Of a DNA stretch of 46,155 nt, positions 4,406 to 31,263 are shown one piece after another. Made by a program: the position numbers and the translations under genes. The notes under the pieces were generated by a model, which was given only the letters and a program-made list of their open reading frames with translations, ran no database searches and had not been told where the DNA came from. This DNA comes from Oscillospiraceae bacterium (GTDB lineage Bacteria; Bacillota; Clostridia; Oscillospirales; Oscillospiraceae). Positions within the stretch are counted from its first letter, which is position 1; the number at the start of each line of letters is the position of its first letter. The stretch covers positions 1 to 46,155 of the forward strand of contig JAFTVM010000077.1 of assembly GCA_017465745.1 (NCBI GenBank). The letters run 5' to 3'.

Positions 4406-4828
4406 ATGTTCGTATATAGCAAGAAGCTTCAGTATCCCGTGAAGATCGACCGTCCCAATCCCCGCCTGGCACGGATCATCCTGACCCAGTACGGCGGCCC
4501 AGACGGTGAACTGGGCGCCAGCCTGCGCTACCTGAGCCAGCGGTATTCGATGCCCTTCGATGATCTGAAAGGACTGCTGACCGATATTGGTACTGAGGAA
4601 CTGGGGCATTTGGAGATGATCGGCGCCATCGTTCATCAGCTCACCAGGAATATGAAGGATAAGCAGATGAAAGATCCTGCTTTTGCACCCTACTTCGTTG
4701 ACCATACCGCCGGTGTCTATCCTGCTGCGGCCTCCGGGACGCCCTGGAGCGCGGCTACCATGCAGGTCAAGGGCGATCCCATGGCGGACCTGGTGGAAGA
4801 CCTGGCGGCAGAGGCTAAGGTGCGATAA
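4406..4828 (+). CDS. cotJC: CotJC N-terminal fragment (gene interrupted by element)
   Basis: This is the spore-coat Mn-catalase-family protein CotJC, truncated to 140 residues against about 190 for the family. Residues 1-136 are typical CotJC, from MFVYSKKLQYPVK to EDLAAE. Glu35, Glu65 and His68 (TEELGHLEM) correspond to half of the dimanganese site. After Glu136 only AKVR and a stop follow, and the rest of the domain is missing. The missing part is at 31075-31263 in a compatible frame. The break coincides with GCAGAG (4808-4813), which recurs at 31069-31074. Alone this fragment lacks the last His ligand and should be inactive. AAGGAGG in the end of the previous gene serves as RBS. No terminator follows it. 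Confidence 0.93.
   Translation: MFVYSKKLQYPVKIDRPNPRLARIILTQYGGPDGELGASLRYLSQRYSMPFDDLKGLLTDIGTEELGHLEMIGAIVHQLTRNMKDKQMKDPAFAPYFVDHTAGVYPAAASGTPWSAATMQVKGDPMADLVEDLAAEAKVR
4808..4813 (+). other. Left attachment core (attL) of the cotJC element
   Basis: GCAGAG encodes Ala135-Glu136 of CotJC. The identical hexamer is at 31069-31074, also on codon boundaries. Crossover anywhere within it gives the same product. To the left is cotJC coding sequence; to the right is element sequence. Confidence 0.8.
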
Positions 4829-4910
4829 AGGGTACGATGCGAAAAGTGCATGTGCCGCAATGAATTTGTTTACGCTTTTACAGGGATGCGCGAGATACGG
4901 TGATGATCCG

Positions 4911-6467
4911 TTAAAACGCCCAAAAAATCGTAACCGGAACCTGTTTGGTTACCCGGTCACGGTGTCCGATTGCGATATGGTCAATGAGAATTTCTGTCAT
5001 CGCTGCGGTCAGAGGCATTTCGTTTACATAGCGTCCGATGATCTCGGCGCGGTTATCTGACTGGGCTTTTTCCCGTTCGATATCCGCCAGTCTCAGCCGG
5101 CATTGGGCGATCCGATCCTCGATCCGGGCGCTCTCGTTACGGAAGGATTCGGCCATGGCGGTATAGTCTTCCTGGCTGATCATTCCCGTTACCTTGTCTT
5201 TATAGAGCATCGCCATGGCTTCTGCACACTCTGCGAGCTTTTCCTGATGGATATTCTGCTCTTCCATTGCTTTTTCAGCCCGGAGCGTGAGCGCCGCAGA
5301 GAAATCGATGTTCCGGCTCAACTCCCCCATGTCCAGAAATTCACGCGAAAACTTGCGCAGTTCCCTGAGAACGATCTCTTCCAGCTCCAGAACCGGCATG
5401 AAACAGCCCTGGCAGGCGTCTTTGGAGATCAGTCGCGTGTTGCACTGCAGATAATGACGGTTATGATTTTTATGTGCCCGAACATGATAGCCGCAGTACA
5501 TGCAAACCACCTTTCCCGAAAAAGGATGGAACATTCCGGTATTTTCAAAGGGTCTGGCATTGGACTTTACTTTCCGCTGAACGCGGTCCCAAAGATCACG
5601 TGCAATGACCGGCTCGTGGGTGTTCTCCACACGGATCCATTTACTTTTGGGACGTGCTCGCAGCTGTCTGCATTTGTAGGACACACTTTCAGCCCTGCCC
5701 TGAACAAGATTTCCGATATATACTTCGTTCGTCAGGATATTTGCAATGGCAGAATACTTCCAAAGGGTATTCAGGTGACGCGTGGCTGTCTTGTATCGGA
5801 AGCCATGCAGGCGTTTGTATTCCGTGGGATTGGGCTCTCCGCGGTCATTCAGCATCCGGGCGATATAGGTTTTTCCGTATCCGGAAGCGAATAAGGTAAA
5901 GATCTCCTTCACCACTGCCGCGGCCTCCTCGTCAATGATCAGATGCCCACGCAGTTCGGGATCCTTTTTGTACCCATAAGGCGCAAAGGCGCCGATGTGA
6001 AACCCATGTTCACGCCGGCTGGTCAGGACGCTTCGAATGTTCTCGGACATATCTTCCAGGTACCATTCGTTGACCAGTCCGTAGATCTGACGGGATTTCT
6101 TGTTGCCTTTGTTGTCGGTATCTGCATGATCGACGATGCTGACAAAACGGATGCCCCAAATCGGGAACAGGCCGTGGATATACTTCTCAACCAGCTCCAG
6201 CTCACGGGTGAAGCGGGACTGGGTCTTGCAGAGGATGATGTCGAACTTCCTGGCCTTGGCATCTGCAATGAGACGCTTGAACTGGGGTCTGCTGCGGTCG
6301 GAGCCTGCGTAGTCATCATCGCTGTATATATCAAAAATTGACCATCCCTGTCCCAAGGCATACTGGATTAACATGGATTTTTGATTTTGGATACTGTTGC
6401 TGTCGTCATATTCATGAAGCTTGTTCCGATCTTCTTCCGAAAGACGGCAATAGATCGCTGCTTTCAT
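4911..6467 (-). CDS. Large serine recombinase A, SpoIVCA type
   Basis: This 518-residue recombinase has an N-terminal resolvase catalytic domain starting AIYCRLS, with nucleophile Ser10. A central recombinase domain follows, then a zinc ribbon (CMYCGY...CNTR...C) around residues 330-375 and a C-terminal coiled-coil-like region rich in Glu and Arg. Such enzymes cut and rejoin att sites with a 2-bp central overlap. Its stop is about 97 bp from the left core, an ideal place for the element's own recombinase. The ATG at 6467 follows AGGAGG; the longer frame to 6500 lacks this. It is 20 bp downstream of a second recombinase, presumably in one operon. Confidence 0.93.
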   Translation of the reverse strand: MKAAIYCRLSEEDRNKLHEYDDSNSIQNQKSMLIQYALGQGWSIFDIYSDDDYAGSDRSRPQFKRLIADAKARKFDIILCKTQSRFTRELELVEKYIHGLFPIWGIRFVSIVDHADTDNKGNKKSRQIYGLVNEWYLEDMSENIRSVLTSRREHGFHIGAFAPYGYKKDPELRGHLIIDEEAAAVVKEIFTLFASGYGKTYIARMLNDRGEPNPTEYKRLHGFRYKTATRHLNTLWKYSAIANILTNEVYIGNLVQGRAESVSYKCRQLRARPKSKWIRVENTHEPVIARDLWDRVQRKVKSNARPFENTGMFHPFSGKVVCMYCGYHVRAHKNHNRHYLQCNTRLISKDACQGCFMPVLELEEIVLRELRKFSREFLDMGELSRNIDFSAALTLRAEKAMEEQNIHQEKLAECAEAMAMLYKDKVTGMISQEDYTAMAESFRNESARIEDRIAQCRLRLADIEREKAQSDNRAEIIGRYVNEMPLTAAMTEILIDHIAIGHRDRVTKQVPVTIFWAF

Positions 6468-6487
6468 ATATTCCCTCCTGCCCAATG

Positions 6488-8038
6488 CTAGAATTGCCAA
6501 TGAATCTCCACCGGTGTGGTCTTTGATACGGGATCCCGTTTTCCAACCAGGATATGATCGATCAGAATATCAGTCATTTCTTTCGTCAGGTGCCGGGTTC
6601 CTGCGTACCGCCGGACAAGTAATTTTCGGTCGATCATCCCACCCAATGTGATGTCGATCCGGGCGATTTTCTCCCGGCATTGGATGATCTGCCGGGACAT
6701 CTTTTCCTGATCGGCACGGAACGCGGCAGATAGGTTCTGAAATTCAGATTCTGTGATGATTTTCTTGATCTTGTCCATGTACAGTCCCCGCAGACCAGCG
6801 GTAAGATCCTTGGATCTGCGGCGATAAAGGGCGATCTCTGACTCCAGCCGGGCACGTGTGGCTCTGAGATCCGGGTAAAGATCAATGCCATTTTCCAGTG
6901 CCTCCTGGTCCAGCAGCGCTTCTGAAAGCGCCTGCAGTTCGGCGGCAACGATGCGTTCCAGCTTCGGCAGAGAAATGGATGCACCGATGCAGGCGTCGGC
7001 CGATACGCTGTGGGTTTTGCATTTGTATCCGCGCTTCTGACCGTTCTTGGTGGAACACATGCGGTATCCGCAGTGCATGCATCGTATTTTACCGGAGAAA
7101 ATACCGGGCTGTCCGGTGCCGGTAGTCGCAGCCTTTTTGCGGATGAGAGACTGAACGTTGTCCCACAGCTGCCGGTCGATGATCGGCATATGGGTTCCCG
7201 GGACTGTGATCCACTGATCCCGGGGCAGATGTATTTTCTGCCGGGATTTATAGGAAGCAACAGCGGCTTTCCCCTGGACCATATTACCGATGTATACTTC
7301 GTTGGTCAGCGTCTGGCTGATTGTCGTGTACCCCCAGAGAGTCCTGACGGGTGTATTCCGGTTGCGTACCATGCCGTGGAGCCGCTTATACTCTGTGGGG
7401 GTTGGGATCCCCTTCTGGTTCAGAATTCTGGCAATTGCCTGCTTTCCGTGACCTTCTGCGTACAGTGTGAAGATCGTCCGGACAACGGAAGCTGCCTCCG
7501 GATCAATCAGCAGATGCCCCTTTTGATCCGGATCCTTCATGTATCCATAGGGCGCGAAGGAACCGATGTGCAGCCCCTTCTTCCGGCGGCTGGTCAGGAC
7601 GGACTTGATATTATCCGACAGGTCTTCCAAAAACCACTCATTGACCAGGCCGGTGATCTGCCTGGATTTTTTATTGCCGGTGTTATCCGTATCGGCATTG
7701 TCAACAATGCTGACAAATCGGATGCCGAGCCGCGGAAACAGGTCATGGATATAGGTCTCCACCAACTCCAGCTCCCGGGTAAACCGGGACTGGGTCTTAC
7801 ACAATACAATATCAAATAATCCGGCCCGGGCGTCCTGGATCAGACGGTTGAACGCCGGCCGGCACCGGTCGGAACCGGCATAGTCGTCGTCACTGTAAAT
7901 ATCGTATATCGTCCAGCCGTTATCGGAGGCATATTCCGCCAGCATGGCCTTCTGATTCTGGATACTGGCGCTGTCGTCATTTTCATGCAGCTTATCCCGG
8001 TCTTCATCAGAAAGCCGGCAGTAGATCGCTACCTTCAT
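6488..8038 (-). CDS. Large serine recombinase B, SpoIVCA type
   Basis: This 516-residue paralogue of the neighbouring recombinase has the same layout: AIYCRLS with Ser10, SDDDYAGSDR, the recombinase domain, a zinc ribbon (CMHCGY...CKTH...C) and a coiled-coil-like tail. The two differ throughout, so they are diverged partners and not a recent duplication. The pair might act as a heteromer or one might have lost function, but both keep catalytic motifs. I chose the ATG at 8038, because the stop of an upstream small ORF overlaps it as ATGA, implying translational coupling; the longer frame to 8083 runs over that ORF. Confidence 0.92.
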   Translation of the reverse strand: MKVAIYCRLSDEDRDKLHENDDSASIQNQKAMLAEYASDNGWTIYDIYSDDDYAGSDRCRPAFNRLIQDARAGLFDIVLCKTQSRFTRELELVETYIHDLFPRLGIRFVSIVDNADTDNTGNKKSRQITGLVNEWFLEDLSDNIKSVLTSRRKKGLHIGSFAPYGYMKDPDQKGHLLIDPEAASVVRTIFTLYAEGHGKQAIARILNQKGIPTPTEYKRLHGMVRNRNTPVRTLWGYTTISQTLTNEVYIGNMVQGKAAVASYKSRQKIHLPRDQWITVPGTHMPIIDRQLWDNVQSLIRKKAATTGTGQPGIFSGKIRCMHCGYRMCSTKNGQKRGYKCKTHSVSADACIGASISLPKLERIVAAELQALSEALLDQEALENGIDLYPDLRATRARLESEIALYRRRSKDLTAGLRGLYMDKIKKIITESEFQNLSAAFRADQEKMSRQIIQCREKIARIDITLGGMIDRKLLVRRYAGTRHLTKEMTDILIDHILVGKRDPVSKTTPVEIHWQF

Positions 8039-8169
8039 GGATTTGCTTTCAGACGTTCCAGGTGATTGATGAGACGGATCCATAGCTGGGTGTACTCATC
8101 CTTTGTGGGATACCTTCCATTTTTGAATACGTTGCGAACAGCGTTCCCGGGTGCAGAAGTTTTTTCCAT
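8035..8169 (-). CDS. Small 44-aa protein coupled to recombinases; candidate RDF
   Basis: A short ORF begins MEKTSAPGNAVRNVFKNGRY and ends LERLKANP. It has a good AAAGGAG site 8 bp upstream of its ATG. Its TGA overlaps the ATG of recombinase B (ATGA), so the two are likely co-translated. The sequence is basic with a helical-looking second half (YTQLWIRLINHLERLK). I do not recognise a family. Size, charge and position fit a recombination directionality factor such as SprB of the SPbeta phage, but that is inference. Confidence 0.7.
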   Translation of the reverse strand: MEKTSAPGNAVRNVFKNGRYPTKDEYTQLWIRLINHLERLKANP

Positions 8170-8199
8170 CCGAACATCTCCTTTCAAACAAGTCATACA

Positions 8200-8207
8200 A
8201 TCCTATG
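8200..8207 (-). promoter_or_regulatory. Possible mother-cell -10 element for the recombinase operon
   Basis: On the minus strand CATAGGAT lies about 30 bp before the small ORF start. It fits the CATANNNT -10 of SigE/SigK promoters. I found no convincing -35 at the right spacing, so this is weak. Confidence 0.25.
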
Positions 8208-8247
8208 CACACGAATCCACCTTCTTTCAGCCATCATCAAACAATAT

Positions 8248-8277
8248 GCGCCGCCGGTGTCGAATCACCGGCGGCGC
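8248..8277. repeat. Perfect 12-bp GC-rich inverted repeat
   Basis: GCGCCGCCGGTG (8248-8259) pairs with 8266-8277 around a six-base loop. Neither strand has a T tract, so it is a poor intrinsic terminator. It lies between the leftward recombinase operon and the rightward two-component promoter, where it may insulate transcription or serve as a binding site. Confidence 0.7.
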
Positions 8278-8319
8278 GAAGCCTTGGGTTTCTGCCCTTA
8301 GCTGGCTGTATAGATCCTC

Positions 8320-8348
8320 TTGCATTGCAGCACGGAACGGGCTATAAT
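8320..8348 (+). promoter_or_regulatory. SigA-type promoter of first two-component system
   Basis: TTGCAT (8320-8325), a 17-bp spacer and TATAAT (8343-8348) precede the response regulator gene by about 70 bp. Confidence 0.6.
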
Positions 8349-8417
8349 TTCTCTGATCACTGACACAAAATTTACACACATCCAGCCTACCATAAAGACA
8401 GAAAGGAGGCATGGGCC

Positions 8418-9089
8418 ATGAATATGAAGATCCTGATCGCGGAGGATGAACCCAGGCTGCTTGCTGTTCTCTGCGATTATTTCAGAAGCAAGGGAGATCT
8501 CCCCTTCCCCGCGAAAGACGGCGCGGAAGCCCTGGAACTGGCTGAGCGCGGCACCTATGACGGCGTCCTGCTGGACATCATGATGCCGAAAACAGACGGA
8601 CGTGTCGTTTGCCGCGCGCTTCGGAAATTTTCGGATGTGCCCATCATTTTCCTCACGGCGCTGTCCGACGAGGACGATAAACTTCTGGGATATGAGTTGG
8701 GCGCAGACGACTATGTTACGAAGCCCTTTTCCCTGGCAGTTTTGTACGCAAAGATCTCTGCACTGGTGAACCGGAGCCGTGGCAATGTCCTGACCGGGGA
8801 TCAGCTTACCGCTGGAGCGCTGCGTATGGTGCTCTCTTCCCAGGCTGTGTTTGTGGATGGAAATGCCGTCGCCCTGACGCCGAAGGAGTACTCCCTGCTT
8901 CTTTGCCTGATGCGAAACCGGAACATGGTGCTTTCCCGGGAACAGCTTCTGGTGAAGTGCTGGGGTTATGATTACGAGGGCGAGGCCCGGGCGGTGGACA
9001 CACACATCCGGCGCCTCCGGGACAAGCTGGGCGCCTGCGCAGCCATGATCAAGACGGTATACAAGACCGGCTACAAACTGGAGGTGTGA
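8418..9089 (+). CDS. OmpR/PhoB-family response regulator
   Basis: This 223-residue regulator has a receiver domain (residues 1-~115) with the acidic pair ED near residue 10, the phosphoacceptor Asp in LLDIMMP, Thr in FLTA and Lys in TKPF. A winged-helix DNA-binding domain follows (VALTPKEYSLL...VDTHIRRLRDKL). It is followed with a 3-bp frame overlap by a histidine kinase reading frame, and both run rightward from one promoter. AAAGGAGG lies 10 bp before the ATG. Its ligand and targets cannot be told from the sequence. Confidence 0.93.
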   Translation: MNMKILIAEDEPRLLAVLCDYFRSKGDLPFPAKDGAEALELAERGTYDGVLLDIMMPKTDGRVVCRALRKFSDVPIIFLTALSDEDDKLLGYELGADDYVTKPFSLAVLYAKISALVNRSRGNVLTGDQLTAGALRMVLSSQAVFVDGNAVALTPKEYSLLLCLMRNRNMVLSREQLLVKCWGYDYEGEARAVDTHIRRLRDKLGACAAMIKTVYKTGYKLEV

Positions 9090-9094
9090 ACGCT

Positions 9095-11053
9095 GTGAAA
9101 GAGAAAAAGAGAAAGCCCCGGACGGGGCGTGCGCTTACATGGCGGGTCGTGAGCCTGACGCTGGCGCTGTGGCTGGCGTGCATGGTGATCCTGACCTGGT
9201 GCGTCGCTTCGGATATGCGCATCCAGGTGAAGCAGAAGCTGCAGTTCTACATCAATAATGGAAATTGGATCTACCGCAGCGACAAAAGCTGGCATGGAGT
9301 GGCAGAACAGAATATGATCGACCATCTGGGCAGACCCTACATCTGGATCAATCTTGAGACGCTGCTTCCCTTTGCGGAAGGTCAAACCTTTGGTAACTAC
9401 ATCAGTTCCGATGACTGGATGTGGGGCAAATGGGATCTCTATTACGGCTTTGAGCCTGCCATCATCCATTATGACGAAAACGGCGATGAGATCATCCGCA
9501 CCGGCCATTATCTGACCTTTGACTACACCACCGCCGAACACTGGTCACAGCAAATTGTTGCTCCAACAGGGGTAAGCTACATCGCGCTGGACGAGATCCC
9601 CGGGGGTGCGGAACGTTTTGAACATATCCTATCCAATCACGCCATCGGTGATGTGGGCATGGGGATGCTGTATCCCCTCCTGCGGCTCACAGGATGGTTT
9701 GAGGAAAGTGAATTTCATCCCACTCTGATCGAGAACGGAGATTACATCAATTATCAGGGACAAGTCACGGATCTGGAGCAGCTTGCCGCCCTGGATACCC
9801 GGGGAAAGCTGGAATGGGAAACCATGCTCACCGCAGAAGTCCCGGAGGATCAGGAGCTGGTCACCATCTACGCCTTCGAGCCCGGCGGATACAATTGCAC
9901 GACCCGACCTGTCACGGTAAAGGGCGAAACCTTCGACACCCTGGCGGACTATCTGGATACCGCTCTGCGCAGTGAAAACCCCTTCTCCTACGAAAAACAC
10001 AGTCTGCTGGAAACCATTGTATTCTATTCCAGAACCCATACAGACGATCTGGGGCAATACCGCACCGCCGTGGCCATCCGGTGCGCGCCACTGCAATACG
10101 CGGTTTTGCGGCTGGTTTGGACCTATATCATATCCTTTGCAGTGGTTGCCTTGATCCTGTGGCGGATCCTGCGCCGGATCCGCCGGAATCTGACCGCGCC
10201 CCTGATGGAGATGGCCGGAGCTGCACAGCAAGGGTATCTGGTCAAGGCGTCCTCCGGCTGGGCAGAGCCTGCGGCCATCGAAGAATACTTCGTGGGAACC
10301 CATCAGACCCTGGCCGAGAATAAAACGGAAATCACCCGGCTCCGCACCGCCCTGGAGTACGCCCATGACGCCGAGGAAAACCGCAAAGCACTGATCTCCA
10401 ACATCACCCATGAACTGAAAACACCTCTGGCCATCATCCACAGCTATACCGAGTGCCTGCAGGAGGATATTTCTCCCGAAAACCGGGCGCAGTATCTTGC
10501 CACCATTCTGGAGGAAACCGAGCGGATGGACGCCATGGTCCTGCAAATGCTGGAGCTTTCCCGGCTGGAAGCCGGCAGGGTACGGCTTGCGACCGAACCC
10601 TTCTCCCTGCTGGAGCTGACAAACGCCATCGCAGAAAAACTGGAACCCCTGATGGCGGAGCGGAAACTGACGCTTTCCTATGGTCTTGCCCAGGATTTCG
10701 TGATGACAGCCGATGAGAGCCGCATGGGACAGGTCATTACCAATCTGCTGTCCAACGCCCTGAAATATACCACGGAGGGCGGCACCATCCGCATCCAGAT
10801 TTTCCTGACCAGGGGAACTGTCTGCTTGCGCATGACGAATACAGCGCCCCATCTTTCTGATGAAGCCCTCCACAAGGTCTGGGACAGCTTTTATCGGGCT
10901 GATTCCTCCAGACACACACCGGGCACCGGTCTGGGACTGGCGCTGGTGAAATCCATCATTGCCCTCCACGGCGGCAGCTGTACGGTTCGCAACACCGTCA
11001 TGGAGGATGGCCGGGACGGCGTGGAGTTTGGCTTTGAAATTCCCCTGAAATAA
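9095..11053 (+). CDS. Sensor histidine kinase
   Basis: This is the partner of the upstream response regulator. The protein of about 652 residues has a first membrane helix at ~15-38, a large extracellular sensor region of roughly 290 residues, and a second helix (LVWTYIISFAVVALILW). A HAMP-like linker, HisKA box (ITHELKTPL with the phospho-His) and HATPase with the GTGLGLALVKSI motif follow. The start is taken as GTG at 9095, which lies 10 bp after GGAGG; GTG at 9086 would be too close. The extracellular domain is not one I recognise. It ends before a bidirectional terminator. Confidence 0.9.
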   Translation: MKEKKRKPRTGRALTWRVVSLTLALWLACMVILTWCVASDMRIQVKQKLQFYINNGNWIYRSDKSWHGVAEQNMIDHLGRPYIWINLETLLPFAEGQTFGNYISSDDWMWGKWDLYYGFEPAIIHYDENGDEIIRTGHYLTFDYTTAEHWSQQIVAPTGVSYIALDEIPGGAERFEHILSNHAIGDVGMGMLYPLLRLTGWFEESEFHPTLIENGDYINYQGQVTDLEQLAALDTRGKLEWETMLTAEVPEDQELVTIYAFEPGGYNCTTRPVTVKGETFDTLADYLDTALRSENPFSYEKHSLLETIVFYSRTHTDDLGQYRTAVAIRCAPLQYAVLRLVWTYIISFAVVALILWRILRRIRRNLTAPLMEMAGAAQQGYLVKASSGWAEPAAIEEYFVGTHQTLAENKTEITRLRTALEYAHDAEENRKALISNITHELKTPLAIIHSYTECLQEDISPENRAQYLATILEETERMDAMVLQMLELSRLEAGRVRLATEPFSLLELTNAIAEKLEPLMAERKLTLSYGLAQDFVMTADESRMGQVITNLLSNALKYTTEGGTIRIQIFLTRGTVCLRMTNTAPHLSDEALHKVWDSFYRADSSRHTPGTGLGLALVKSIIALHGGSCTVRNTVMEDGRDGVEFGFEIPLK

Positions 11054-11084
11054 GAATGCCGTAAACCGCTTACCAAAACAAATG

Positions 11085-11111
11085 CCCCGCTGCAATTGAT
11101 TTGCAGCGGGG
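11085..11111. terminator. Bidirectional intrinsic terminator
   Basis: An 11-bp stem CCCCGCTGCAA/TTGCAGCGGGG with a five-base loop is followed on the plus strand by TTT. It separates the convergent histidine kinase and alanine racemase genes. Confidence 0.8.
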
Positions 11112-11118
11112 TTTCCCG

Positions 11119-12198
11119 TTAAATAAAACGCCTTTCGCAGGAAGTCAGCAGCAGATTGCCGCTCCACTCCACCCAGTCGCCGGGATGGATCTCCACGCCT
11201 GTTGCATCAAACAGCGTATACTGATTACCGATCCGTCCCAAAACCGGCAGCTTGTGACCGTGGAAGTCCACGCAGGGAGGGCTGCGCCACATTCTCAGCA
11301 CACGCAGAAGATACGCCGCCAGATCCCGCAGACGAAGTTTGTCCGGCAGCGTGGTCGTCCCGAAGCCGTCCTCCCGCCCCAGGGCAACCACTGCCGCTTT
11401 TGCACTGTGCTTCAGGACACAATAGCTTCCGTAGCCTGTTGTATCTCCCGGCTGCAGGTACTTCAGGTCCGCGACCCGTGCCTTGCACACGTGTACCGAT
11501 TCCAGCATCACCGGGGACGGCGCAAGCAGCCGTCCCACCAGGGCAGAGCCGATGCGCACCGCATCCAGCCGGGTTTCCGTAAACCGCAGGGCAGCGTTGC
11601 TGTTGGCAATGTGCCGGATGCCTACATTGTACCCTGCTGCCTCAAGGGCGTTTACTGCGCTGAGAAAACGCCGAAGCTGAATTTCGGTGTGCTGATATTC
11701 CTCCTCAAAGGAACAGGAGAAATGGGAGAAGATTCCCTCGAAGGAGAACCCCGCCAGCGCGTACAGCCACTCCAGCTGCGCGGTATCCGTCCACCGGATA
11801 CCGAATCGCCCCATACCCGTATCCACCGCCACATGGACCCGGATTGGATACTTGCCCGTAGAATCACTGTAAAACAATGCATTTTCAACCCCGGTCACCG
11901 TCAGGATCACATTGGCATCGATCATTCTCTTCAAAGTCTCTTCGTCTGCCACGGGACTCATCAGCAGAATATCCTCCTGAAAACCGAATTTCCGCAGCGT
12001 CAGGGCCTCCTCCGGCCGGGACACGGCGAACATGGTTACCCCGGCATCCGCCCAGGCCGCAGCCGCCTCTGCGATGGTGACGCCGTAGCCATCGCATTTG
12101 ACAACGCCGATCACCGGTACCCCCACTGCCTTACACACCGCGGCCGCATTGCGCCGCAGGGCGCGGCGGGAAATCTCAAGATGATTGGACTGGCACAT
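11119..12198 (-). CDS. Alanine racemase-family PLP enzyme
   Basis: This fold-III PLP racemase would interconvert L- and D-alanine for peptidoglycan. It has 359 residues, the usual Alr length. The PLP lysine lies in VVKCDGYG (the family has KANAYGHG). HVAVDTGMGRFG and the catalytic-Tyr region TTGYGSY are also present. The changed K-C-D-G-Y-G motif and cargo location suggest an accessory paralogue, not the housekeeping alr; serine racemase activity, as in VanT-type enzymes, is possible. The start at 12198 (ATG, AAAGGG upstream) is better placed than GTG 12207. Its promoter carries TGATGCA repeats shared with the nearby response regulator's promoter. Confidence 0.88.
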   Translation of the reverse strand: MCQSNHLEISRRALRRNAAAVCKAVGVPVIGVVKCDGYGVTIAEAAAAWADAGVTMFAVSRPEEALTLRKFGFQEDILLMSPVADEETLKRMIDANVILTVTGVENALFYSDSTGKYPIRVHVAVDTGMGRFGIRWTDTAQLEWLYALAGFSFEGIFSHFSCSFEEEYQHTEIQLRRFLSAVNALEAAGYNVGIRHIANSNAALRFTETRLDAVRIGSALVGRLLAPSPVMLESVHVCKARVADLKYLQPGDTTGYGSYCVLKHSAKAAVVALGREDGFGTTTLPDKLRLRDLAAYLLRVLRMWRSPPCVDFHGHKLPVLGRIGNQYTLFDATGVEIHPGDWVEWSGNLLLTSCERRFI

Positions 12199-12230
12199 AA
12201 AAAACACCCTTTCGTATCTGTCTTGCTGAC

Positions 12231-22007: not shown

Positions 22008-22020
22008 CTTTTCTATATCC

Positions 22021-22923: not shown

Positions 22924-23012
22924 GTTGATCCCTCCTGTCGAGAATCAGTATAGCAGAGGCGGCCATAAAATGCCTGACATTGAATGCTATCATGTATCGG
23001 CTGGCAACGGTG

Positions 23013-23504: not shown

Positions 23505-23515
23505 ATGAACCTCGA

Positions 23516-23956: not shown

Positions 23957-23994
23957 AATTCTCCTTTCTGTATCCGGGATTGTGGAATCCCTCC

Positions 23995-24119: not shown

Positions 24120-24126
24120 TGGAAAT

Positions 24127-24155
24127 ATCATAACACTGCAAGAAAGAATTGTCAA
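24127..24155 (-). promoter_or_regulatory. SigA-type promoter of the kinase-acetyltransferase operon
   Basis: A consensus TTGACA (24150-24155), 17-bp spacer and TATGAT (24127-24132) on the minus strand put the start near 24119, giving a leader of about 160 nt before the kinase ATG. Between this promoter and 24289, TGAAACC (24218-24224) could be an ECF-type -35 for the rightward sigma factor, but no matching -10 was clear. Confidence 0.75.
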
Positions 24156-24288
24156 ATGAAGATACAGCAGGCATCCGACTCCCTGATTTTGAGGTATTAT
24201 AAAAAATAAGCAAACAGTGAAACCATTTATCCTGTTTTTGAGATATGATAAGTGAAAGCAGCTTTCAATACAGAAGGAGTCATTTCCC

Positions 24289-24831
24289 ATGACAGAACAG
24301 ACGATGATCCGAAAAATGCGGTCCAGGGATCCGGCGGGGCTGGAAGCCCTGATGGACCGCTACATACCCTACGTGTCCGCTGTGGTATGGAATCTTCTTC
24401 GTTTTTCCATGCAGCCGGAGGATGCGGAGGAGGTTGTCTCCGACGTGTTTCTGGCGGCCTGGAATCAGGCGAAGGATCTGCAGTCCGGCAAGGTGAAAGC
24501 CTGGCTGGCGGCTGTGGCCAGGAACAAGGCAAAGAGTAAACTCCGCAGCATGGCCAAAGACCTTCCTCTGGAAGAGGATCTGCTGGAACTGCCCGGGCGG
24601 GACAGCCCGGAAACAGAACTTACGCAGACGGAGGAACGCTTCCTGGTGAACTGGGCAGTCAATGACCTGCCGGAACCGGATAAGGAGATCTTCCTGCGGC
24701 ATTACTACCATGCCCAGACCGTCCGGGAAATCTCGGAAGAAATGGCTCTGAAGGAATCGACCATCAAGACAAAGCTCCGCCGGGGCCGGGCGAAGCTGAA
24801 AGAAACGCTGACGAGGTGGGGTGCGATATGA
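24289..24831 (+). CDS. ECF-type RNA polymerase sigma factor
   Basis: A 180-residue sigma-70 family protein with region 2 (YIPYVSAVVWNLL...DAEEVVSDVFLAAWNQ) and region 4 (LPEPDKEIFLRHYYHAQTVREISEEMALKESTIKTKLRRGRAKLK). It lacks sigma 1 and 3 regions, as expected for ECF factors. The ATG follows AGAAGGAG. Its TGA overlaps the ATG of the next gene, a membrane protein with a cytoplasmic N-terminus, which is the usual sigma/anti-sigma arrangement. Confidence 0.92.
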   Translation: MTEQTMIRKMRSRDPAGLEALMDRYIPYVSAVVWNLLRFSMQPEDAEEVVSDVFLAAWNQAKDLQSGKVKAWLAAVARNKAKSKLRSMAKDLPLEEDLLELPGRDSPETELTQTEERFLVNWAVNDLPEPDKEIFLRHYYHAQTVREISEEMALKESTIKTKLRRGRAKLKETLTRWGAI

Positions 24832-25859
24832 AAAAGAACATTTCCGATCTGCTGGATGCATACGGCGATCCCAATATCAAACTGGAACAGGCAGCGCCCC
24901 TGTCCTCAGAAAGGATCAAGGAGCTGACCATGAGTAAGATCAAAGAAGAAAACGCGCCGAAGAAGCGGCGTATCACATTTCGTGTGATGATGGCTGCGGC
25001 TATCATCGTGACCCTGGCGGTGTCTGTCTTTGCGGCAGGCAGCGGCGCCGCGTGGTTTCAGGATTTCTTTGCAAAGCAGAGTCGTTCAGAAATGACGCAA
25101 AGCCAAATTGAATACATCCATAAAAATGCAGCGGAGCAGGCACAAAGCAAAAGCATCAATGGATATACCGTAACGCTGGATTCCTACATCACGGACGGAA
25201 GCACAACGTATGCCAAAATCAGGATCGAAATTCCGGAAACATCGGCGGTATCCGGCGGCAGTTTGACCTTCGAAGACGGCCCCTGGCTGATGAAGGATGG
25301 CGAACCCATTGGCGGTGCGTCCACAACCTGGAAGATGCTGGAATGGGACGAGGCTGCCCGTGCCGGGACTTATTTGCTGCGGTATCAGTTGATCCACGTA
25401 ACCCGGGGAGATGTCCAGACCGGAAACGTGGAATTGGTCATGACGAATTTGGTTTCCACCGATGACAGGAAAAACTATCTGGCGGAAGGAAGCTGGCAGT
25501 TTCAGGTGAACATCCCGGAGGCAGAGGTATTGGAACTGGGGGAAGAGTCCCTTGGGAAAGTGGAAGTCCGTACTGAGGAAGACGAAACCATCGAAGTGGA
25601 ACTTCTGCAGGCGGATATGACAGCCATGGGACTGCGGATCGAATTCCGGGAACCGGTCAATGATACGTTTTATTATTTGATGGGTGTGAAAGCCGTCCTG
25701 GGTGATGGGACAGAGGTTCTTCTGCGGGCGAAAACCTTCGGTGCAAGGGACTCGATCCACTGGATGTATCTGGAGCCTGAATCCCCCACGCCTTTGGAGG
25801 AAGTCATGTATGTAGAATTCCCCGGCGGGGCGCGGATTACTTTTAATATGGCAGAATAA
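24828..25859 (+). CDS. DUF4179-like anti-sigma factor
   Basis: A 343-residue single-pass protein. A cytoplasmic N-terminus (1-~52, containing KKRRITFRV) is followed by one membrane helix (MMAAAIIVTLAVSVFAA) and an extracytoplasmic domain of about 270 residues that is rich in beta strands. This layout is common for DUF4179-type partners of Clostridial ECF sigma factors. It overlaps the sigma gene by ATGA. It probably holds the sigma factor inactive until an envelope signal; the signal is unknown. Confidence 0.85.
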   Translation: MKKNISDLLDAYGDPNIKLEQAAPLSSERIKELTMSKIKEENAPKKRRITFRVMMAAAIIVTLAVSVFAAGSGAAWFQDFFAKQSRSEMTQSQIEYIHKNAAEQAQSKSINGYTVTLDSYITDGSTTYAKIRIEIPETSAVSGGSLTFEDGPWLMKDGEPIGGASTTWKMLEWDEAARAGTYLLRYQLIHVTRGDVQTGNVELVMTNLVSTDDRKNYLAEGSWQFQVNIPEAEVLELGEESLGKVEVRTEEDETIEVELLQADMTAMGLRIEFREPVNDTFYYLMGVKAVLGDGTEVLLRAKTFGARDSIHWMYLEPESPTPLEEVMYVEFPGGARITFNMAE

Positions 25860-25865
25860 CAAAAA

Positions 25866-25900
25866 GCCGCAGTTGGAGAATCAAAAGCTCCAACTGCGGC
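25866..25900. terminator. Bidirectional intrinsic terminator
   Basis: A 13-bp stem GCCGCAGTTGGAG/CTCCAACTGCGGC with a nine-base loop has AATTTT on the plus side and TTTTT on the minus side. It separates the anti-sigma gene from the leftward Cys-rich membrane protein gene. Confidence 0.85.
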
Positions 25901-25926
25901 AATTTTCAATTCGTTACGAAATCAAG

Positions 25927-26787
25927 CTATGCGCAGGCCGGATAATTTCTGAAAATCTGAGCCGTCCTGTAAAGGTAGACCAGCTTGACGATGCCGACAA
26001 CGGCGGTGCCGATGACGGATACCAGCATCGCGATGACACCCAGCAGCGGAAGGATCAGCATGACCACAATGCCGCCGATCATGGCGCAGAGCAGTCCGAT
26101 ATACCACTTCCACAGCTTTTCCCACTTTTCAGCCAGCAAATTGTCCACGCCGGTCAGGACAGCGGAATGTGCCATGCACTCATTGTACACGCCGAAAAAG
26201 CTGGCTGCGGAAGCAGGAAGGGAGATCAGCAGCGTCCAGGTCGGTGTCTCACCGCCTCCGGAGACGACGGCGATCAGGATGCTGGCAGCGTTGGCAATCA
26301 GGGAACAGATACCCGCCGTACGGTATCTCTCTTCCTCTGACGCCAGTTTCAGCAGAATGACGCCGTAGACAGTCAGCACGGTGACGTCCAGAATCATTCC
26401 CGGGATGTACAGTGCAGGCACCATTTCCACCGCCATCTCGTGGGTCATCAGACCGGCGATCTCATTGGGAATGATGAGCCAGAACAGGATCCACAGCCAT
26501 TTGCCCAGGACAGGCGCCCGTCCGGCGATGGCGGCTTTCCGCTGTTCCTCTGCCTCGATCCGCCGGATGCGGTATTCGGGTATGCTGTCACGGCCCCGCA
26601 GGGTGCCGCAGTTGACGCGCAGGCTGCAGGTGTCGCAGGTCTCGTGACTCTTGTTCCGGACGCATCTGGCAAGCTCACAATCCCCGCCAAACTGCCTACC
26701 GGGGCCGGCTTTACAGCCCGGACAGTTCAGGGTTTCTTTCTTGGCGCATTCGGCGCAGGTTTTGCCGCAATAGGTTTCAGCCATCAT
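25927..26787 (-). CDS. Cys-rich DUF3795-like membrane protein
   Basis: About 286 residues. The first ~70 carry many cysteines (CGKTCAECAKKETLNCPGC, then CELARCVRNKSHETCDTC), as in DUF3795-type zinc or Fe-S binding modules. A charged linker (RRIEAEEQRKAA) and about five hydrophobic helices follow, from WLWILFWLIIPNEIAGLM to the C-terminus. The combination suggests a membrane-bound metal or redox sensor, but the function is unknown. Two in-frame ATGs (26787, 26784) follow GGGGGAGGGG; the second has the better spacing. It is the last of three leftward genes. Confidence 0.75.
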   Translation of the reverse strand: MMAETYCGKTCAECAKKETLNCPGCKAGPGRQFGGDCELARCVRNKSHETCDTCSLRVNCGTLRGRDSIPEYRIRRIEAEEQRKAAIAGRAPVLGKWLWILFWLIIPNEIAGLMTHEMAVEMVPALYIPGMILDVTVLTVYGVILLKLASEEERYRTAGICSLIANAASILIAVVSGGGETPTWTLLISLPASAASFFGVYNECMAHSAVLTGVDNLLAEKWEKLWKWYIGLLCAMIGGIVVMLILPLLGVIAMLVSVIGTAVVGIVKLVYLYRTAQIFRNYPACA

Positions 26788-26807
26788 AATCCCCTCCCCC
26801 GTTGTTA

Positions 26808-27740
26808 TCATGCTTTGACGATCAGCTCATCGAGCTGTGCTTTCAGTCTGGCAAGCTCACTGTCAGCGGCAGCTTGCATCTGTTCCAGTTTCTCGATGGT
26901 GCGGGTGATCTTGCTCCTGGTGGAAGATACGGAATCATAGGACTGACTGATCCGGCTGCCTACCGCCCAGTCCGCAAAAAGGCCATCGAAGAAGTAGTCA
27001 GCAAACCGCAGGAAGCCGTCGATATTGACCTGGACATCTGATTGGATCTGGATGTCGGCAAGCTCGGTTTTGAAGCGTCTGAGTTTACTCTGAAGCTCGG
27101 AAACCAGATCCTGGGCGGAATCCAGATGGCTGTGCTTGGCAACGTGGGTAATGATACCGCCGCCTCCGATCAGGTCCCAGGTGTTCCAGTTATCAGCGCT
27201 GTTCAGCTCAGACAAAATCTGCTCTGCCGTTCCCCGGGCGCTGAGGCCGGCAGAGATGGCTTCCCGGATCTCCTTCTTTTGCGCTTCCAGCAGTGCGATC
27301 CCCTCTTCCAGGGTCAGGATTTGCTCCCCGGTCTCCGTGCCGGAGTCAGTCAGCTCCTTCCGCTTTTTCTCCAGGAGCCGGGTATACGCCTCTTCCGCGC
27401 TGCCGATTTCAGAAAGCTCAGCCAGGATCCGGCTGATGTCTTGTTCGATCCTCTGAATTTCCCCCTGGGCAGCATCCAGTTTGACCTTGGCTGCATAAGC
27501 TTCCTGACGCTCCTGATCCAGCTTATCATCCAGTTTGCCGATCACTGCGAAGAAATAATTGGATAGGCTTCTGCCCTCCAGCTTCTCCACATCCTCCTGC
27601 TCCTTCCGGAAGGCGACCCGCAGCGAGACCACCTTTCGCTCATATTCCCACTTCTGGGTGCGCAACTCTTTCAGCTTCGCCTCCAGCTGATGCTTTCCGG
27701 CAACTTTCTGCCGGAGCTGTTCCAATGTATTCTCACTCAT
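26808..27740 (-). CDS. Coiled-coil protein of unknown function
   Basis: A 310-residue, mostly alpha-helical, charged protein. Coiled-coil heptads dominate residues ~1-60, ~80-175 and ~270-310. A short conserved-looking middle (NTWDLIGGGGIITHVAKHSHLDSA) interrupts them; this GGGG-I-THxxKHxxLD pattern is seen in other Firmicute helical proteins of unknown role. No signal peptide or membrane helix. AGGAGG lies before ATG 27740. It lies 14 bp from the upstream gene for a membrane-anchored protein, suggesting an operon. Confidence 0.75.
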   Translation of the reverse strand: MSENTLEQLRQKVAGKHQLEAKLKELRTQKWEYERKVVSLRVAFRKEQEDVEKLEGRSLSNYFFAVIGKLDDKLDQERQEAYAAKVKLDAAQGEIQRIEQDISRILAELSEIGSAEEAYTRLLEKKRKELTDSGTETGEQILTLEEGIALLEAQKKEIREAISAGLSARGTAEQILSELNSADNWNTWDLIGGGGIITHVAKHSHLDSAQDLVSELQSKLRRFKTELADIQIQSDVQVNIDGFLRFADYFFDGLFADWAVGSRISQSYDSVSSTRSKITRTIEKLEQMQAAADSELARLKAQLDELIVKA

Positions 27741-27754
27741 ATCAGATCCTCCTC

Positions 27755-28675
27755 TCAATCTTTTCCGTACAGCAGATTTCCTGCACTGTCGTATATCGAT
27801 TCGCTGCCGTAGGCAGTTTCCGCATGGGCGCTGCCCTGCTGCTTCCAATAGTGGACCAGGATCCGGTGCGTGTAACTCAAGCTGTCCGTGGCTTCCAGAT
27901 AGATGGCCAGCTCGTCGCCTTCCGTCACTTTGTATTCCTTTTGGTATTCGTCACGGAAAAAGACACCCTCGGGATAGCTCGGATCTTTCAGCGCATCATT
28001 GGTGATATCTTCCCGGGTGATTTCCTCTCCGTTCAGCTCCGTGACCAATTCAAATTTTTCAAATCTGACCTTGGGGGTATATTTCGTGGGCGTGCAATCA
28101 ACGATCAGTGTTCCGTCCAGCGTATACTTGCCATCGGTGAATGTGCCGGAGCCGCTGATATCGCCGTGATACAGGCTGGGCAGATATTCGGTCCAGAGGT
28201 AATTGATGTAGATTTCGTCCAGATATTCGGTCTGGACACCATCGGCGGTGGTGATGGTCATCAGGACCTGCTGGTCCTCGGTAAAAAGGGCCACCGGAAG
28301 CAGACCGATGAAAGCATTGTCTTTTCTGGTAAGTTCCGTTTCCACATTGTCGCAGCGCACCCGGATCGTCATATCATCGGTAATGACCTTCGGGACGATT
28401 GTTATTGCGACATCGACTGTATGGAGCTCCGTGTTCAGGTCATGATACTCATATTCCGCACTGGATACGAGGCTTGCCTGTTGTTTCAGCTTTTCATCGA
28501 CATTGTCGTAAATGTAATCAATATTCTGCATTATCGATTGATATTGATTGTTCAGCTTACTTTCCAGACTGCTGACCTGAGATTCCAGACTGCCGATCTT
28601 ATAATAGCAGAACAACAAACCGATCACGAGCAATACGATGATGGTCAGCTGAAAATCCAATTTTTTCTTATCCAT
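27755..28675 (-). CDS. Membrane-anchored protein with coiled-coil stalk, unknown function
   Basis: A 306-residue protein with a basic N-terminus (MDKKKLDFQ), one membrane helix (LTIIVLLVIGLLFCYYKI), a coiled-coil stalk (LESQVSSLESKLNNQ, ~30-70) and a beta-rich domain of ~230 residues. It would project outside the membrane. No family recognised. First gene of a leftward three-gene set with the coiled-coil and Cys-rich membrane proteins. Confidence 0.78.
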   Translation of the reverse strand: MDKKKLDFQLTIIVLLVIGLLFCYYKIGSLESQVSSLESKLNNQYQSIMQNIDYIYDNVDEKLKQQASLVSSAEYEYHDLNTELHTVDVAITIVPKVITDDMTIRVRCDNVETELTRKDNAFIGLLPVALFTEDQQVLMTITTADGVQTEYLDEIYINYLWTEYLPSLYHGDISGSGTFTDGKYTLDGTLIVDCTPTKYTPKVRFEKFELVTELNGEEITREDITNDALKDPSYPEGVFFRDEYQKEYKVTEGDELAIYLEATDSLSYTHRILVHYWKQQGSAHAETAYGSESIYDSAGNLLYGKD

Positions 28676-28976
28676 CTGTTACCCCTCCCCCAATGTGTTT
28701 TATGGCTTACCCCAAACCATCTGTCTGCCTTTTCATCCTGCAATGAACGGCCCGTCATAGTCGGATCCATGACCATACTCTTTCCATATTGATTGTATCA
28801 TACCAGGGCATATCATACAATCGTAAGAATTCGTTGTTTACAGAAATTCCATATTTTAGAAATGTCATTTACTGAAGCCGCAGATCCATTCGGCGCATGC
28901 AAAGCCGGTGCACAATTTGTCACTTGCCGTCATATTCTGTTCCAGGCCCCTGTATGGGGCAGAAAGGAATGATCCT
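28676..28976. other. Intergenic region between divergent genes
   Basis: No gene in 301 bp. CATACAAT at 28814-28821 on the plus strand resembles a mother-cell sigma -10, but no -35 fits its spacing. AAAGGA at 28962 is the RBS for the VWA gene. Otherwise nothing clear. Confidence 0.4.
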
Positions 28977-30347
28977 ATGGCAATTACAAGATCCACAAAA
29001 GAATTAAGCACCACCGCCATCGATTGCGGCGGAACCTTTGACGTGATCCTGACACTGGGTGCGCAGCCGGAGATTACAGACAATCCAACGGATATTGTTC
29101 TGATCCTGGACCGGTCCGGCAGCATGACGCAGAGCCTCCCCGCCCTGAAAAATGCCGCCAATGTGTTCATCGACATCATCGAGGAATCCACTGACGGCGT
29201 CCGGGACGGAATTATCGGCGGCGGAAGCAGAATCGGGGTCGTCAGTTTTTCCAGCCAGGCTACCCAGGATACGCAGCTGATCACCTCCGTGGCGGCGCTG
29301 AAAGCATCAGTCAATGCGCTGAATGCGGGCGGAGATACCAATCATGCCGATGCATTCACCAAAGCCCTGGCGCTGTTTGATCCCCAGTCAGCCAATGCAA
29401 AAGTCATGGTTATGGTCACAGACGGCTTTACCACCACCGGTGGAGATGCCAATGTGGTTGCTTCTGCCGCCAAAGCAGCAGGCGTGAGCATTTATATCAT
29501 CGGCCTTTCCGGCAACGGCGGTATTGACGAAACGGCGCTGCGCCAGTGGGCGTCCCAGCCGGATACGGAATTCGTATCCATCGCCCCCAGCGATGCGCAG
29601 CTGGAGGAGATCTTTGGCCAGCTGGCTCAGACCATCGTAAGCCCCGGTGCCACCAATGTGGTCATCAACGAGTATCTGTCTGACTGCTTCCGAATTCTGT
29701 CGGTATCCACCCCCTCCAGGGGTACCGCCATGCTTGTAGATGAAAACCATCTGCAGTGGCTGATTCCCGAGCTGGGCGTTACCCAGGAGGAGGAGGCTGT
29801 CCTGCGCTTCACAGCGGAGCATCTGGGTGCGTGCAGCGGTCTGGTCAGCGTCAACGAATCCATCGATTATGATGACGCCCAGGGCAACACCCCTGACTTT
29901 GGTGATCCTGAGATTCTGGTAAACTGCGGTGATGTGGTGATCCCGGAGCCCTGTCCCCTGCCGGTCAGCATTACCATGGAGGGCTGCGAGGATGAAATTG
30001 AGATCGATGCCGGTGACGCTGTGCTGGAATCCCTGGGGCGGATCCTCAAGCTGGACGTGACCATTCCCAATGTCTGCCCCGGCAGACGTGTGGCACTGGC
30101 CGTTATCCTGACGGAGGAAGACGACGAGGGCAACGAATACCGCCGGGGCATGAAGACCCTGGTGATCCCCGCCCACGACGGGGAAAGCTGCCGGGATGTG
30201 ACGGTGCGCTGCATCCGCTTCGTCCTGCCGGAGGAGCTGGATGTGTCCGGCGACGCGGGCAGACTCTGCGACCAGCGCAATTTCAGAGTCCGTTTCATCG
30301 CCAACTATATCGACGCCGGCTTCACCTGCTGTACCCCTGATGACTGA
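28977..30347 (+). CDS. VWA-domain protein
   Basis: A 456-residue protein with no obvious signal peptide. A von Willebrand factor A domain covers ~35-215 with the MIDAS metal site DRSGSM near 47-52, a Thr in GGDTNHADAF and an Asp in VTDGFTT. A beta-rich region follows (ITMEGCEDEIEIDAGDAVLESLGR), with a Cys-containing end (FTCCTPDD). Relatives occur in other Clostridia as uncharacterised cell-surface or spore-associated proteins; that is memory, not a search result. It is the largest gene near the element's right end and ends at an intrinsic terminator. Confidence 0.85.
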   Translation: MAITRSTKELSTTAIDCGGTFDVILTLGAQPEITDNPTDIVLILDRSGSMTQSLPALKNAANVFIDIIEESTDGVRDGIIGGGSRIGVVSFSSQATQDTQLITSVAALKASVNALNAGGDTNHADAFTKALALFDPQSANAKVMVMVTDGFTTTGGDANVVASAAKAAGVSIYIIGLSGNGGIDETALRQWASQPDTEFVSIAPSDAQLEEIFGQLAQTIVSPGATNVVINEYLSDCFRILSVSTPSRGTAMLVDENHLQWLIPELGVTQEEEAVLRFTAEHLGACSGLVSVNESIDYDDAQGNTPDFGDPEILVNCGDVVIPEPCPLPVSITMEGCEDEIEIDAGDAVLESLGRILKLDVTIPNVCPGRRVALAVILTEEDDEGNEYRRGMKTLVIPAHDGESCRDVTVRCIRFVLPEELDVSGDAGRLCDQRNFRVRFIANYIDAGFTCCTPDD

Positions 30348-30360
30348 CAAATAACAGAGA

Positions 30361-30396
30361 AATCCGGTCTGGTGCGTTTATCAGGCCGGATTTTTT
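30361..30396 (+). terminator. Intrinsic terminator of the VWA gene
   Basis: AATCCGGTCTG (30361-30371) pairs with CAGGCCGGATT (30382-30392, one GU), followed by TTTTTTG, 13 bp after the VWA stop. Confidence 0.85.
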
Positions 30397-30474
30397 GTAT
30401 CAGAAAAAGAAATGTGAATTACTGCACAGTATCGGGAAAATACTAATGGCATCCAGCAAAAAGGAGTTGCCGCT

Positions 30475-30909
30475 ATGATTGAACAGGATACCATCCGGCT
30501 GCTGCGGGAGTGCGATGCCGGCATCAAAATGGGGATTTCTTCCATTGACGATGTTCTTCCCCATGTTAAAAGTCAAAAACTCAGCCAAACGCTCAGCCAT
30601 TGTAAGGATGAGCATGAACATCTGGGCAGCGAGATCCAGAAGCTTCTGTGCCGATACGGCGACAGCGGCAAGGATCCGAATCCGATCGCAAAGGGCATGT
30701 CCCGGATCAAAACAAACATGAAGCTTGGCGCGGCCGAATCCAATGCCACAATTGCCGATCTGATGACTGACGGCTGCAACATGGGTGTGAAATCCCTGAG
30801 CAAATATTTGAATCAGTATCAGGCCGCTGACGAGGCATCCAAAGATATCGCAAAGCGGCTCATCAGCATTGAGCAGCAGCTTGCCGCTGATGTACGCTGT
30901 TTCCTGTAA
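30475..30909 (+). CDS. Small helical-bundle protein, ferritin-like/DUF2383-type
   Basis: A 144-residue protein predicted to be nearly all helix. CKDEHEHLGSEIQKLL and the repeat-like KYLNQYQAADEASKDIAKRLISIEQQ pattern resemble ferritin-like PA2169/DUF2383 proteins, which form four-helix bundles. Metal binding is not certain. AAAGGAG precedes the ATG. It is the last gene before the right end of the element; 30910-31068 after it is non-coding. Confidence 0.75.
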   Translation: MIEQDTIRLLRECDAGIKMGISSIDDVLPHVKSQKLSQTLSHCKDEHEHLGSEIQKLLCRYGDSGKDPNPIAKGMSRIKTNMKLGAAESNATIADLMTDGCNMGVKSLSKYLNQYQAADEASKDIAKRLISIEQQLAADVRCFL

Positions 30910-31068
30910 TGGTGCATACGACGCGATGGAAGCTGCCTACCCTATCCTGATGTGTCTGACACAACCAGTTTGCGCCATCATTTTGCAAATAGAAAGTAAG
31001 ATTGCGTCGCAGGAAATGGATTTGCTGTCCTGTTTTGTGGGCTAAAAAGTTGTTTTATATTTCATTCA

Positions 31069-31074
31069 GCAGAG
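31069..31074 (+). other. Right attachment core (attR) of the cotJC element
   Basis: GCAGAG, identical to 4808-4813. The next codons CAA AAA GCA CGA GTG ACC continue CotJC after Glu136. To the left is non-coding element sequence without a start codon or RBS. Confidence 0.8.
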
Positions 31075-31263
31075 CAAAAAGCACGAGTGACCTACGACAA
31101 CATTCTCCGGCTCAGTGACGACCCTGATGTCAATGATGTCATCCGGTTCCTGCGGGAGCGGGAGGTGGTCCATTTCCAGCGATTTGGCGAGGCAATCGAA
31201 AAATTGCGGGAGAAGCTGGATCAGCGCAACGTATATTGCATGAATCCTGCCATCGATATCTAA
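31069..31263 (+). CDS. cotJC: CotJC C-terminal fragment (displaced 3' end)
   Basis: In frame from the core the codons read AEQKARVTYDNIL, then SDDPDVNDV, LREREVVHFQRFGEA and end in NPAIDI and TAA. This is the C-terminal third of CotJC (Bacillus CotJC has LREREIVH at this point). There is no start codon or RBS upstream, so it cannot be expressed alone. Joined after Glu136 of the 5' part it gives 198 residues. In that protein Glu136 and His169 stand 33 apart, the same spacing as ligands Glu148/His181 recalled from Lactobacillus Mn catalase, completing the site begun by Glu35, Glu65 and His68. It is followed 19 bp later by the operon terminator. Confidence 0.93.
   Translation, partial: AEQKARVTYDNILRLSDDPDVNDVIRFLREREVVHFQRFGEAIEKLREKLDQRNVYCMNPAIDI

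Follow-up and report, generated by a model that had tools for sequence, protein, structure and literature searches.

The contig analysed here (the window: 46,155 nucleotides of the Oscillospiraceae bacterium assembly GCA_017465745.1, contig JAFTVM010000077.1) carries a split copy of cotJC, the gene for a spore-coat manganese (Mn) catalase. A fused cotJA-cotJB gene leads into the 5' fragment of cotJC, and the 3' fragment lies beyond a 26.3-kb island that encodes two large serine recombinases (LSRs). The original prediction held that the halves stand in matching frame and share the hexamer GCAGAG, and we confirmed both points. This core occupies 4808-4813 and 31069-31074, codons 137-198 occupy 31075-31260 with the stop ending at 31263, and a scripted join of the halves gave a single 198-amino-acid (aa) open reading frame (ORF) with the junction DLAAEQKARVTYDN. 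The joined protein reads AAEQKAR at this point, as do uninterrupted relatives. The hexamer by itself could be chance; a single homologous protein spread over two fragments could not. Assignment to CotJC follows from full-length homology to uninterrupted copies and from the position downstream of cotJA/cotJB. Each half matched once in the host genome, which also encodes SpoIVA. The 3' half was also said to lack a start and to be followed by the operon terminator. Indeed, it has no in-frame ATG upstream of residue 192, no ribosome-binding site (RBS) was apparent by eye, and downstream of it come a hairpin and a short T-run.

Among 42 distinct left (attL) and 71 distinct right (attR) attachment sequences, the element arms (P arms) form inverted repeats (about TGCAATCATATAAGAACAAC) centred on the GA of codon 136. 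On the C-terminal side codon 136 is GAG (53) or GAA (18), hence Glu in all 71 attR sequences; on the N-terminal side it is GAT (32), GAC (3), GAG (6) or GAA (1), which gives Asp in 35 of 42. A crossover at GA would restore Glu136. We joined 21 same-genome pairs at GA (19 distinct genomes, two of which enter twice: L193 = G339 and L206 = G370). The frame stayed open past the junction in 20 of them, and 17 of the 21 rows yielded a complete CotJC of 198-208 aa. Three rows (L182, and G339 listed twice) pass the junction and then reach a second break near residue 176; in L191 the N part is interrupted as well, and the join fails for that reason.

The island has a GC content of 0.543, vs 0.533 and 0.569 in its flanks. 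The two LSR genes, whose products are 53.6% identical, lie in tandem at its left end, and the N-terminal YxRLS motif of LSR1 is invariant among 21 aligned sequences. A sporulation gene is split and its halves rejoin exactly, and serine recombinase genes with a short common core at the flanks are present, features that would place the island with the skin and gin elements. None of the 17 element proteins scanned (Pfam, PHROGs) matched a phage structural family at E <= 0.001, and we therefore did not class the island with the prophages skin and SPbeta; a tail-protein match for 30475-30909 at E 0.017 was disregarded. Assignment of the recombinase to the staphylococcal cassette chromosome (SCC) Ccr type (CcrB, 104.8 bits vs a curated cut-off of 900) or to XisF (91.8 bits vs 375) was rejected.

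Table 1. Features of the split cotJC locus and its island in the window.
Feature	Position	Strand	Basis or remark
Putative sigma-K-type promoter of cotJ operon, AC-N17-CATAGAAT	3913..3939	+	sequence motif match only
Fused cotJA-cotJB, 142 aa	3975..4403	+	Pfam CotJA (17-52) and CotJB (68-135) within single ORF
5' fragment of cotJC	4406..4828	+	homologous through codon 136 (4813), then 4 element-encoded codons and stop
attL (approx.)	4785..4840	+	host B arm, core GCAGAG, overlap GA 4811-4812, element P arm
Intervening element, 26,261 bp, removable by excision	4813..31073	.	length assumes crossover at GA of codon 136
LSR1, 529 aa	4911..6500	-	Pfam Resolvase, Recombinase, Zn_ribbon_recom
LSR2	6488..8038	-	Pfam; ATG overlaps stop of small ORF
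Conserved small protein, 44 aa, candidate recombination directionality factor (RDF)	8035..8169	-	family membership; function inferred
Promoter-like site of small ORF	8200..8228	-	GAAAGA (8228-8223), 15-bp spacer, CATAGGAT (8207-8200)
Cargo: alanine racemase-like protein	11119..12207	-	Pfam; NCBIfam alr 165.3 bits, just below cut-off 168
Cargo: histidine kinase and response regulator (two-component system)	13766..15858	-	Pfam
Cargo: two BlaR1-type M56 peptidase / BlaI-type repressor pairs	15938..21852	-	Pfam
Cargo: AraC-type regulator, GNAT acetyltransferase, proteins without confident family	22021..28675	-	Pfam
Cargo: VWA-domain protein and DUF2383-like protein (below its cut-off)	28908..30909	+	Pfam
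attR (approx.)	31045..31100	+	element P arm, core GCAGAG, overlap GA 31072-31073, host B arm
3' fragment of cotJC	31069..31263	+	codons 135-198 and stop
Operon terminator	31283..31316 (approx.)	+	hairpin and short T-run, read from sequence

Is cotJC intact in relatives? The original prediction had called for this search, and we classified 61 of 136 genus genomes by hand with lists of attachment sites. Uninterrupted cotJC was present in 17 and split cotJC in 24; a relative with intact cotJC that also holds both fragments as separate conserved genes, named beforehand as the refuting case, was not seen, the 17 having one uninterrupted copy. G007 and G053 were left unclassed, their contigs ending at the core, and G038 was counted as mixed. 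Twelve genomes are split at residue 136 (G000, G006, G019, G024, G027, G029, G042, G043, G052, G054, G055 and G057) and twelve near residues 52-65 (G002, G009, G013, G015, G018, G020, G023, G034, G045, G047, G058 and G059), with G009 and G018 broken at both places. A single piece is all that was found for G020, G023, G027, G029, G042, G043, G045 and G058, and the G015 stretch contains a TGA. Of the codon-136 islands lying on one contig, the smallest measures 2.8 kb (G054) and the largest about 46 kb (G019).

Further break sites came from 32 chosen genomes of the family: near residue 33 (G201, G450), near 60-65 (G133, G157, G170, G191) and near 170-176 (G099, G339, G346, G404). The recombinases at sites near 65 belong to other lineages than the codon-136 clade. 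The break sites may coincide with metal-ligand motifs of Mn-catalases. Besides L191, where a single contig holds all three pieces, cotJC was found in three pieces in G099, G170, G201, G339 and G450; the outermost pieces are weak matches in G099 (E 1.7e-4), G339 (E 8.5e-4) and G346 (E 3.2e-5), and the search of family genomes did not find the last piece of G404.

A close LSR (E <= 1e-100) occurs in 10 of the 136 genus genomes, each time with a cotJC fragment on the same contig, and 39 of 400 family genomes have an LSR match. Family loci whose LSR is at least 52% identical carry a cotJC fragment within the fetched flank in 15 of 18 cases, the other three having a split cotJC elsewhere on the contig, vs none of nine loci at about 42% identity. 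From at least 573 relatives among the matches listed we kept 80 loci of named genomes, some of which overlap the survey genomes (L163 = G513, L164 = G019, L170 = G052). A cotJC fragment broken at 136 was present in 71 of the 80. The nine without one are L165, L166, L167, L178, L200, L205, L209, L210 and L232; L166 matches G099:C33, whose break falls outside the flank, and a contig end truncates several of the rest. Among the hosts are Roseburia faecis, Anaerotignum lactatifermentans, Blautia sp., Diplocloster modestus, Clostridium fessum, Flintibacter muris and Faecalicatena faecalis. We conclude from these comparisons that the LSR clade is tied to cotJC codon 136.

LSRs 99.0-99.6% identical are shared by Anaerotignum lactatifermentans, a Roseburia metagenome-assembled genome and Blautia sp. 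An249, in which the CotJC N parts are 53-76% identical (the An249 piece being 76 aa); between Diplocloster modestus and Clostridium fessum the LSRs are 99.8% identical and CotJC 72%. LSRs about 99% identical across genera point to recent transfer, so that the islands appear to be moving now and are not merely old relics.

The detached 3' fragments are open from the core (92 entries including duplicates; L119, L132 and L186 were not usable, and L198 and L215 had no stop within the stretch read). The pooled ratio of nonsynonymous to synonymous differences per site (pN/pS) was 0.118 in 36 pairs from 9 split genomes vs 0.101 for 7 intact ones, with synonymous sites largely saturated. Close pairs with related elements had 0 nonsynonymous and 10 synonymous differences (L236/L239, LSRs 98% identical), 5 and 13 (L229/L234, 92%) and 9 and 14 (L168/L234, 88%). 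More distant pairs gave higher ratios, up to a nonsynonymous divergence (dN) of 0.33 with a synonymous divergence (dS) of 0.70. Judged by these counts, the detached 3' fragments are under purifying selection. The pair L163/L170 differs by 1 nonsynonymous and 16 synonymous changes (proteins 98% identical), and its LSRs are only 60% identical; such unlike LSRs on near-identical 3' fragments suggest that islands may replace each other at the site.

A small protein, typically of about 48 aa, accompanies the recombinase in 76 of the 80 named loci. In 74 its gene lies no more than 400 bp upstream of the LSR gene, and in L164 and L165 it is about 1.8 kb away. Its family profile was built from 53 aligned sequences including the window's copy, and the E-value for that copy is therefore no evidence. 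Pfam, NCBIfam and PHROGs offered no convincing family, and the profile did not find the protein in the nine loci with LSRs at about 42% identity or in L083. We regard it as a candidate excision factor.

Promoter patterns set before the sequences were seen were applied to 54 small-ORF upstream regions and 60 shuffles. A loose sigma-E pattern matched 24 of 54 (shuffled mean 2.08, maximum 6), a sigma-K pattern 4 (mean 0.35) and a sigma-A pattern 0 (mean 0.22). The refined pattern ATA-N16/18-CATAnnnT, set after the sequences had been seen, matched 50 of 75 distinct small-ORF upstreams, 18 of 1158 controls (regions upstream of the first M of each ORF) and 1 of 67 cotJA upstreams (a set gathered by regular expression, with some starts doubtful). 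Conversely, the sigma-K-type AC-N16/17-CATAnnnT matched 5 of 75, 22 of 1158 and 58 of 67. With related upstreams grouped, the sigma-E-type motif was present in at least half of the members in 16 of 34 groups (55% identity) or 6 of 23 (50%). The window shares its variant, GAAAGA-N15-CATA, with four relatives, which makes 5 of the 75 small-ORF upstreams; none of the 1158 controls or 67 cotJA regions has it. A SpoIIID consensus gave a weak signal (16 of 75 vs 122 of 1158), and a pattern derived from these same data, hence not independent, matched 52 of 75. Because the small protein lies behind a sigma-E-type site and the cotJ operon behind a sigma-K-type site, excision would precede expression.

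We propose that the 26.3-kb interval is probably a site-specific island in cotJC that is excised in the mother cell to rejoin the gene. The island would have entered through an LSR at an attB centred on codon 136 with overlap GA. In the mother cell, sigma-E would turn on the small protein along with both recombinases, LSR2 and LSR1. The small protein would serve as directionality factor, and the recombinase would join attL to attR. The circle would then be lost with the dying mother cell, and sigma-K would afterwards transcribe the rejoined cotJ operon. The forespore would retain the island, which could thus be inherited at no cost in spore Mn-catalase. The attachment-site structure, the recombinases, exact frame restoration, recurrence and purifying selection are seen in the sequence; mother-cell control, the directionality role, circle loss and sigma-K transcription are the steps we infer.

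The kind of element is known. The genes listed as restored by excision in spore formers are few: sigK, spsM, spoVFB and gerE, plus yabG (PMC10747680). Among the closest elements is gin in gerE of Bacillus cereus ATCC10987, likewise a non-phage island (28.6 kb vs 26.3 kb here) with several serine recombinases and a short common core (9 bp). It splits a mother-cell gene and leaves it during sporulation with the help of a further factor, GirX; it differs in target and host and in having three LSRs about 22-26% identical, vs two at 53.6% here (PMC5595907). Skin(Cd) in sigK of Clostridioides difficile combines a constitutive LSR with a 72-aa RDF (CD1234) under sigma-E and SpoIIID, and its excision restores a mother-cell gene. 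It is prophage-like with another target (PMC5025042). Sporulation excision of SPbeta from spsM in Bacillus subtilis reconstitutes a spore-envelope gene, although SPbeta is an active prophage (PMC4191935). Yin, in the sporulation gene yabG of Clostridium botulinum, has integrated and circular excised forms that coexist in culture; it differs in being prophage-like and in its target (PMC10747680). Our search of the open-licence literature (preprints outside its scope) found no report of a split and restored cotJC. The nearest case is phi027 of C. difficile R20291, a mobile element that adjoins a Mn-catalase coat gene; there the cotJC-like gene (ORF 1465, 678 bp) lies downstream of attR and is not described as split or reconstituted (PMC11222575, PMC12122855). 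The target cotJC and the recombinase/small-protein family appear to be new.

Could the island instead be an integrative element of the ordinary kind, its attB placed by chance within a coat gene that is conserved but dispensable, with CotJC lost and any excision incidental? Near-identical LSRs have moved between genera, as such an element might, and these would be recent insertions of unproven harmlessness. CotJC was not found in 17 of the 61 genus genomes, many of them incomplete. The coat was not markedly defective in C. difficile cotCB and cotD mutants, although their catalase activity was lower (PMC11222575), and mutants of B. subtilis CotJC are said to show no apparent defect (PMC12122855). 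Other observations also weigh against excision in the mother cell. The sequence data searched held no excised junction or circle. The strict sigma-E pattern, which was tried first, matched only 2 of 54 upstreams (shuffled mean 0.67), the refined pattern is post hoc, and the window's own site has GAAAGA instead of ATA at -35. In many relatives the LSR appears by eye to have its own sigma-A-like promoter, and the directionality role of the small protein rests on position, size and promoter. Finally, the smallest island (G054/L083) encodes an LSR of 396 aa (4158-5348) without the C-terminal residues and is missing the small protein. Against an ordinary element, the 3' fragments are open and under purifying selection in pairs carrying related elements, and a mother-cell-type site is conserved ahead of the small protein. 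We therefore consider it unlikely. The skin-like character claimed for the locus in the original prediction is supported by comparison: precise in-frame reconstitution, a site-tied recombinase clade, a small protein behind a sigma-E-type promoter and selection on the 3' fragment favour a skin-type element over plain inactivation.

Two further explanations have much less in their favour. Each fragment might be a gene expressed on its own, or the two products might come together as a split protein, given that the 5' fragment retains the operon start and both fragments are conserved; this is very improbable, as neither a start codon nor an RBS is present where the 3' fragment begins, and the 5'-fragment tails vary between elements. 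An assembly chimera, which 122 contigs and 7% estimated contamination in the host assembly might suggest, is less credible still, because the same arrangement occurs in the one-contig genome G424 and the N fragment adjoins the LSR in a named strain, Roseburia faecis M72.

Records of mobile elements were also searched. The window's 25-base circle-junction pattern was absent from viral_contigs. Nineteen viral contigs matched the LSR alignment, and six of them (L255-L260, IMG/VR) hold a cotJC fragment. Plasmid record OY725852.1, with a close LSR, was rejected as an excised circle since it carries the 3' cotJC fragment. An attP expression matched once in L243-L274, inside a recombinase-like coding stretch, and was judged spurious. 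A phage origin was likewise set aside, the best places in phage records being less than 60% identical.

Gut Clostridia are carried between hosts by their spores. In the genus sample, broken cotJC is at least as common as intact cotJC (24 vs 17 of 61), so programmed rearrangement may be routine in these bacteria. It is an even call, in our estimate, whether a broader picture holds, in which islands that are still mobile have turned cotJC into a gene assembled during development throughout gut Clostridia. In that picture several unlike recombinase lineages would cut it at conserved motifs, some genomes would have to join three pieces by two excisions, a new small protein under sigma-E would set the cut ahead of expression by sigma-K, and a sister lineage may target a PRK06851-like gene. 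The island suggests how a mobile element might reside at low cost in a useful gene: it would depart from the doomed cell and from no other. A new recombinase and candidate excision-factor family with a defined site comes with it. Cultured commensals that carry the element include Anaerotignum lactatifermentans DSM 14214, Roseburia faecis M72, Diplocloster modestus ASD4241 and Flintibacter muris DSM 110149.

Some loci depart from the pattern. In G038 (L116, L117), the end of a contig with intact cotJC is identical over 89 overlapping bases to the start of another contig, which begins at the core. This could reflect integrated and empty states in one sample; a strain mixture explains it equally well. 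Pieces of cotJC lie in opposite orientation on one contig in G201 (C1: 112357, 71980, 129685) and G450 (C122: 19273, 2027), an arrangement from which excision alone could not rebuild the gene. For elements near residue 65, the small-protein profile had no match in L091, L092 and L102, and few sigma-E-like sites were seen in seven elements, so the sigma-E control model is proposed here for the codon-136 elements. At the residue-65 site of Pusillibacter faecalis MM59 (L275, NZ_AP023421), cotJC residues 62-198 adjoin mobilization, replication and partition genes, and the element there looks plasmid-like or like an integrative and conjugative element.

The sister LSR clade (about 42% identity; L154-L162) adjoins a 5'-truncated PRK06851-like gene in eight of nine loci; G218 and G263 have this gene intact. 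Six of eight loci show a sigma-E-like site some 180-280 bp upstream of their LSR, by a pattern that had been set on other data. The PRK06851-like gene is possibly a second dedicated target, that of the sister clade.

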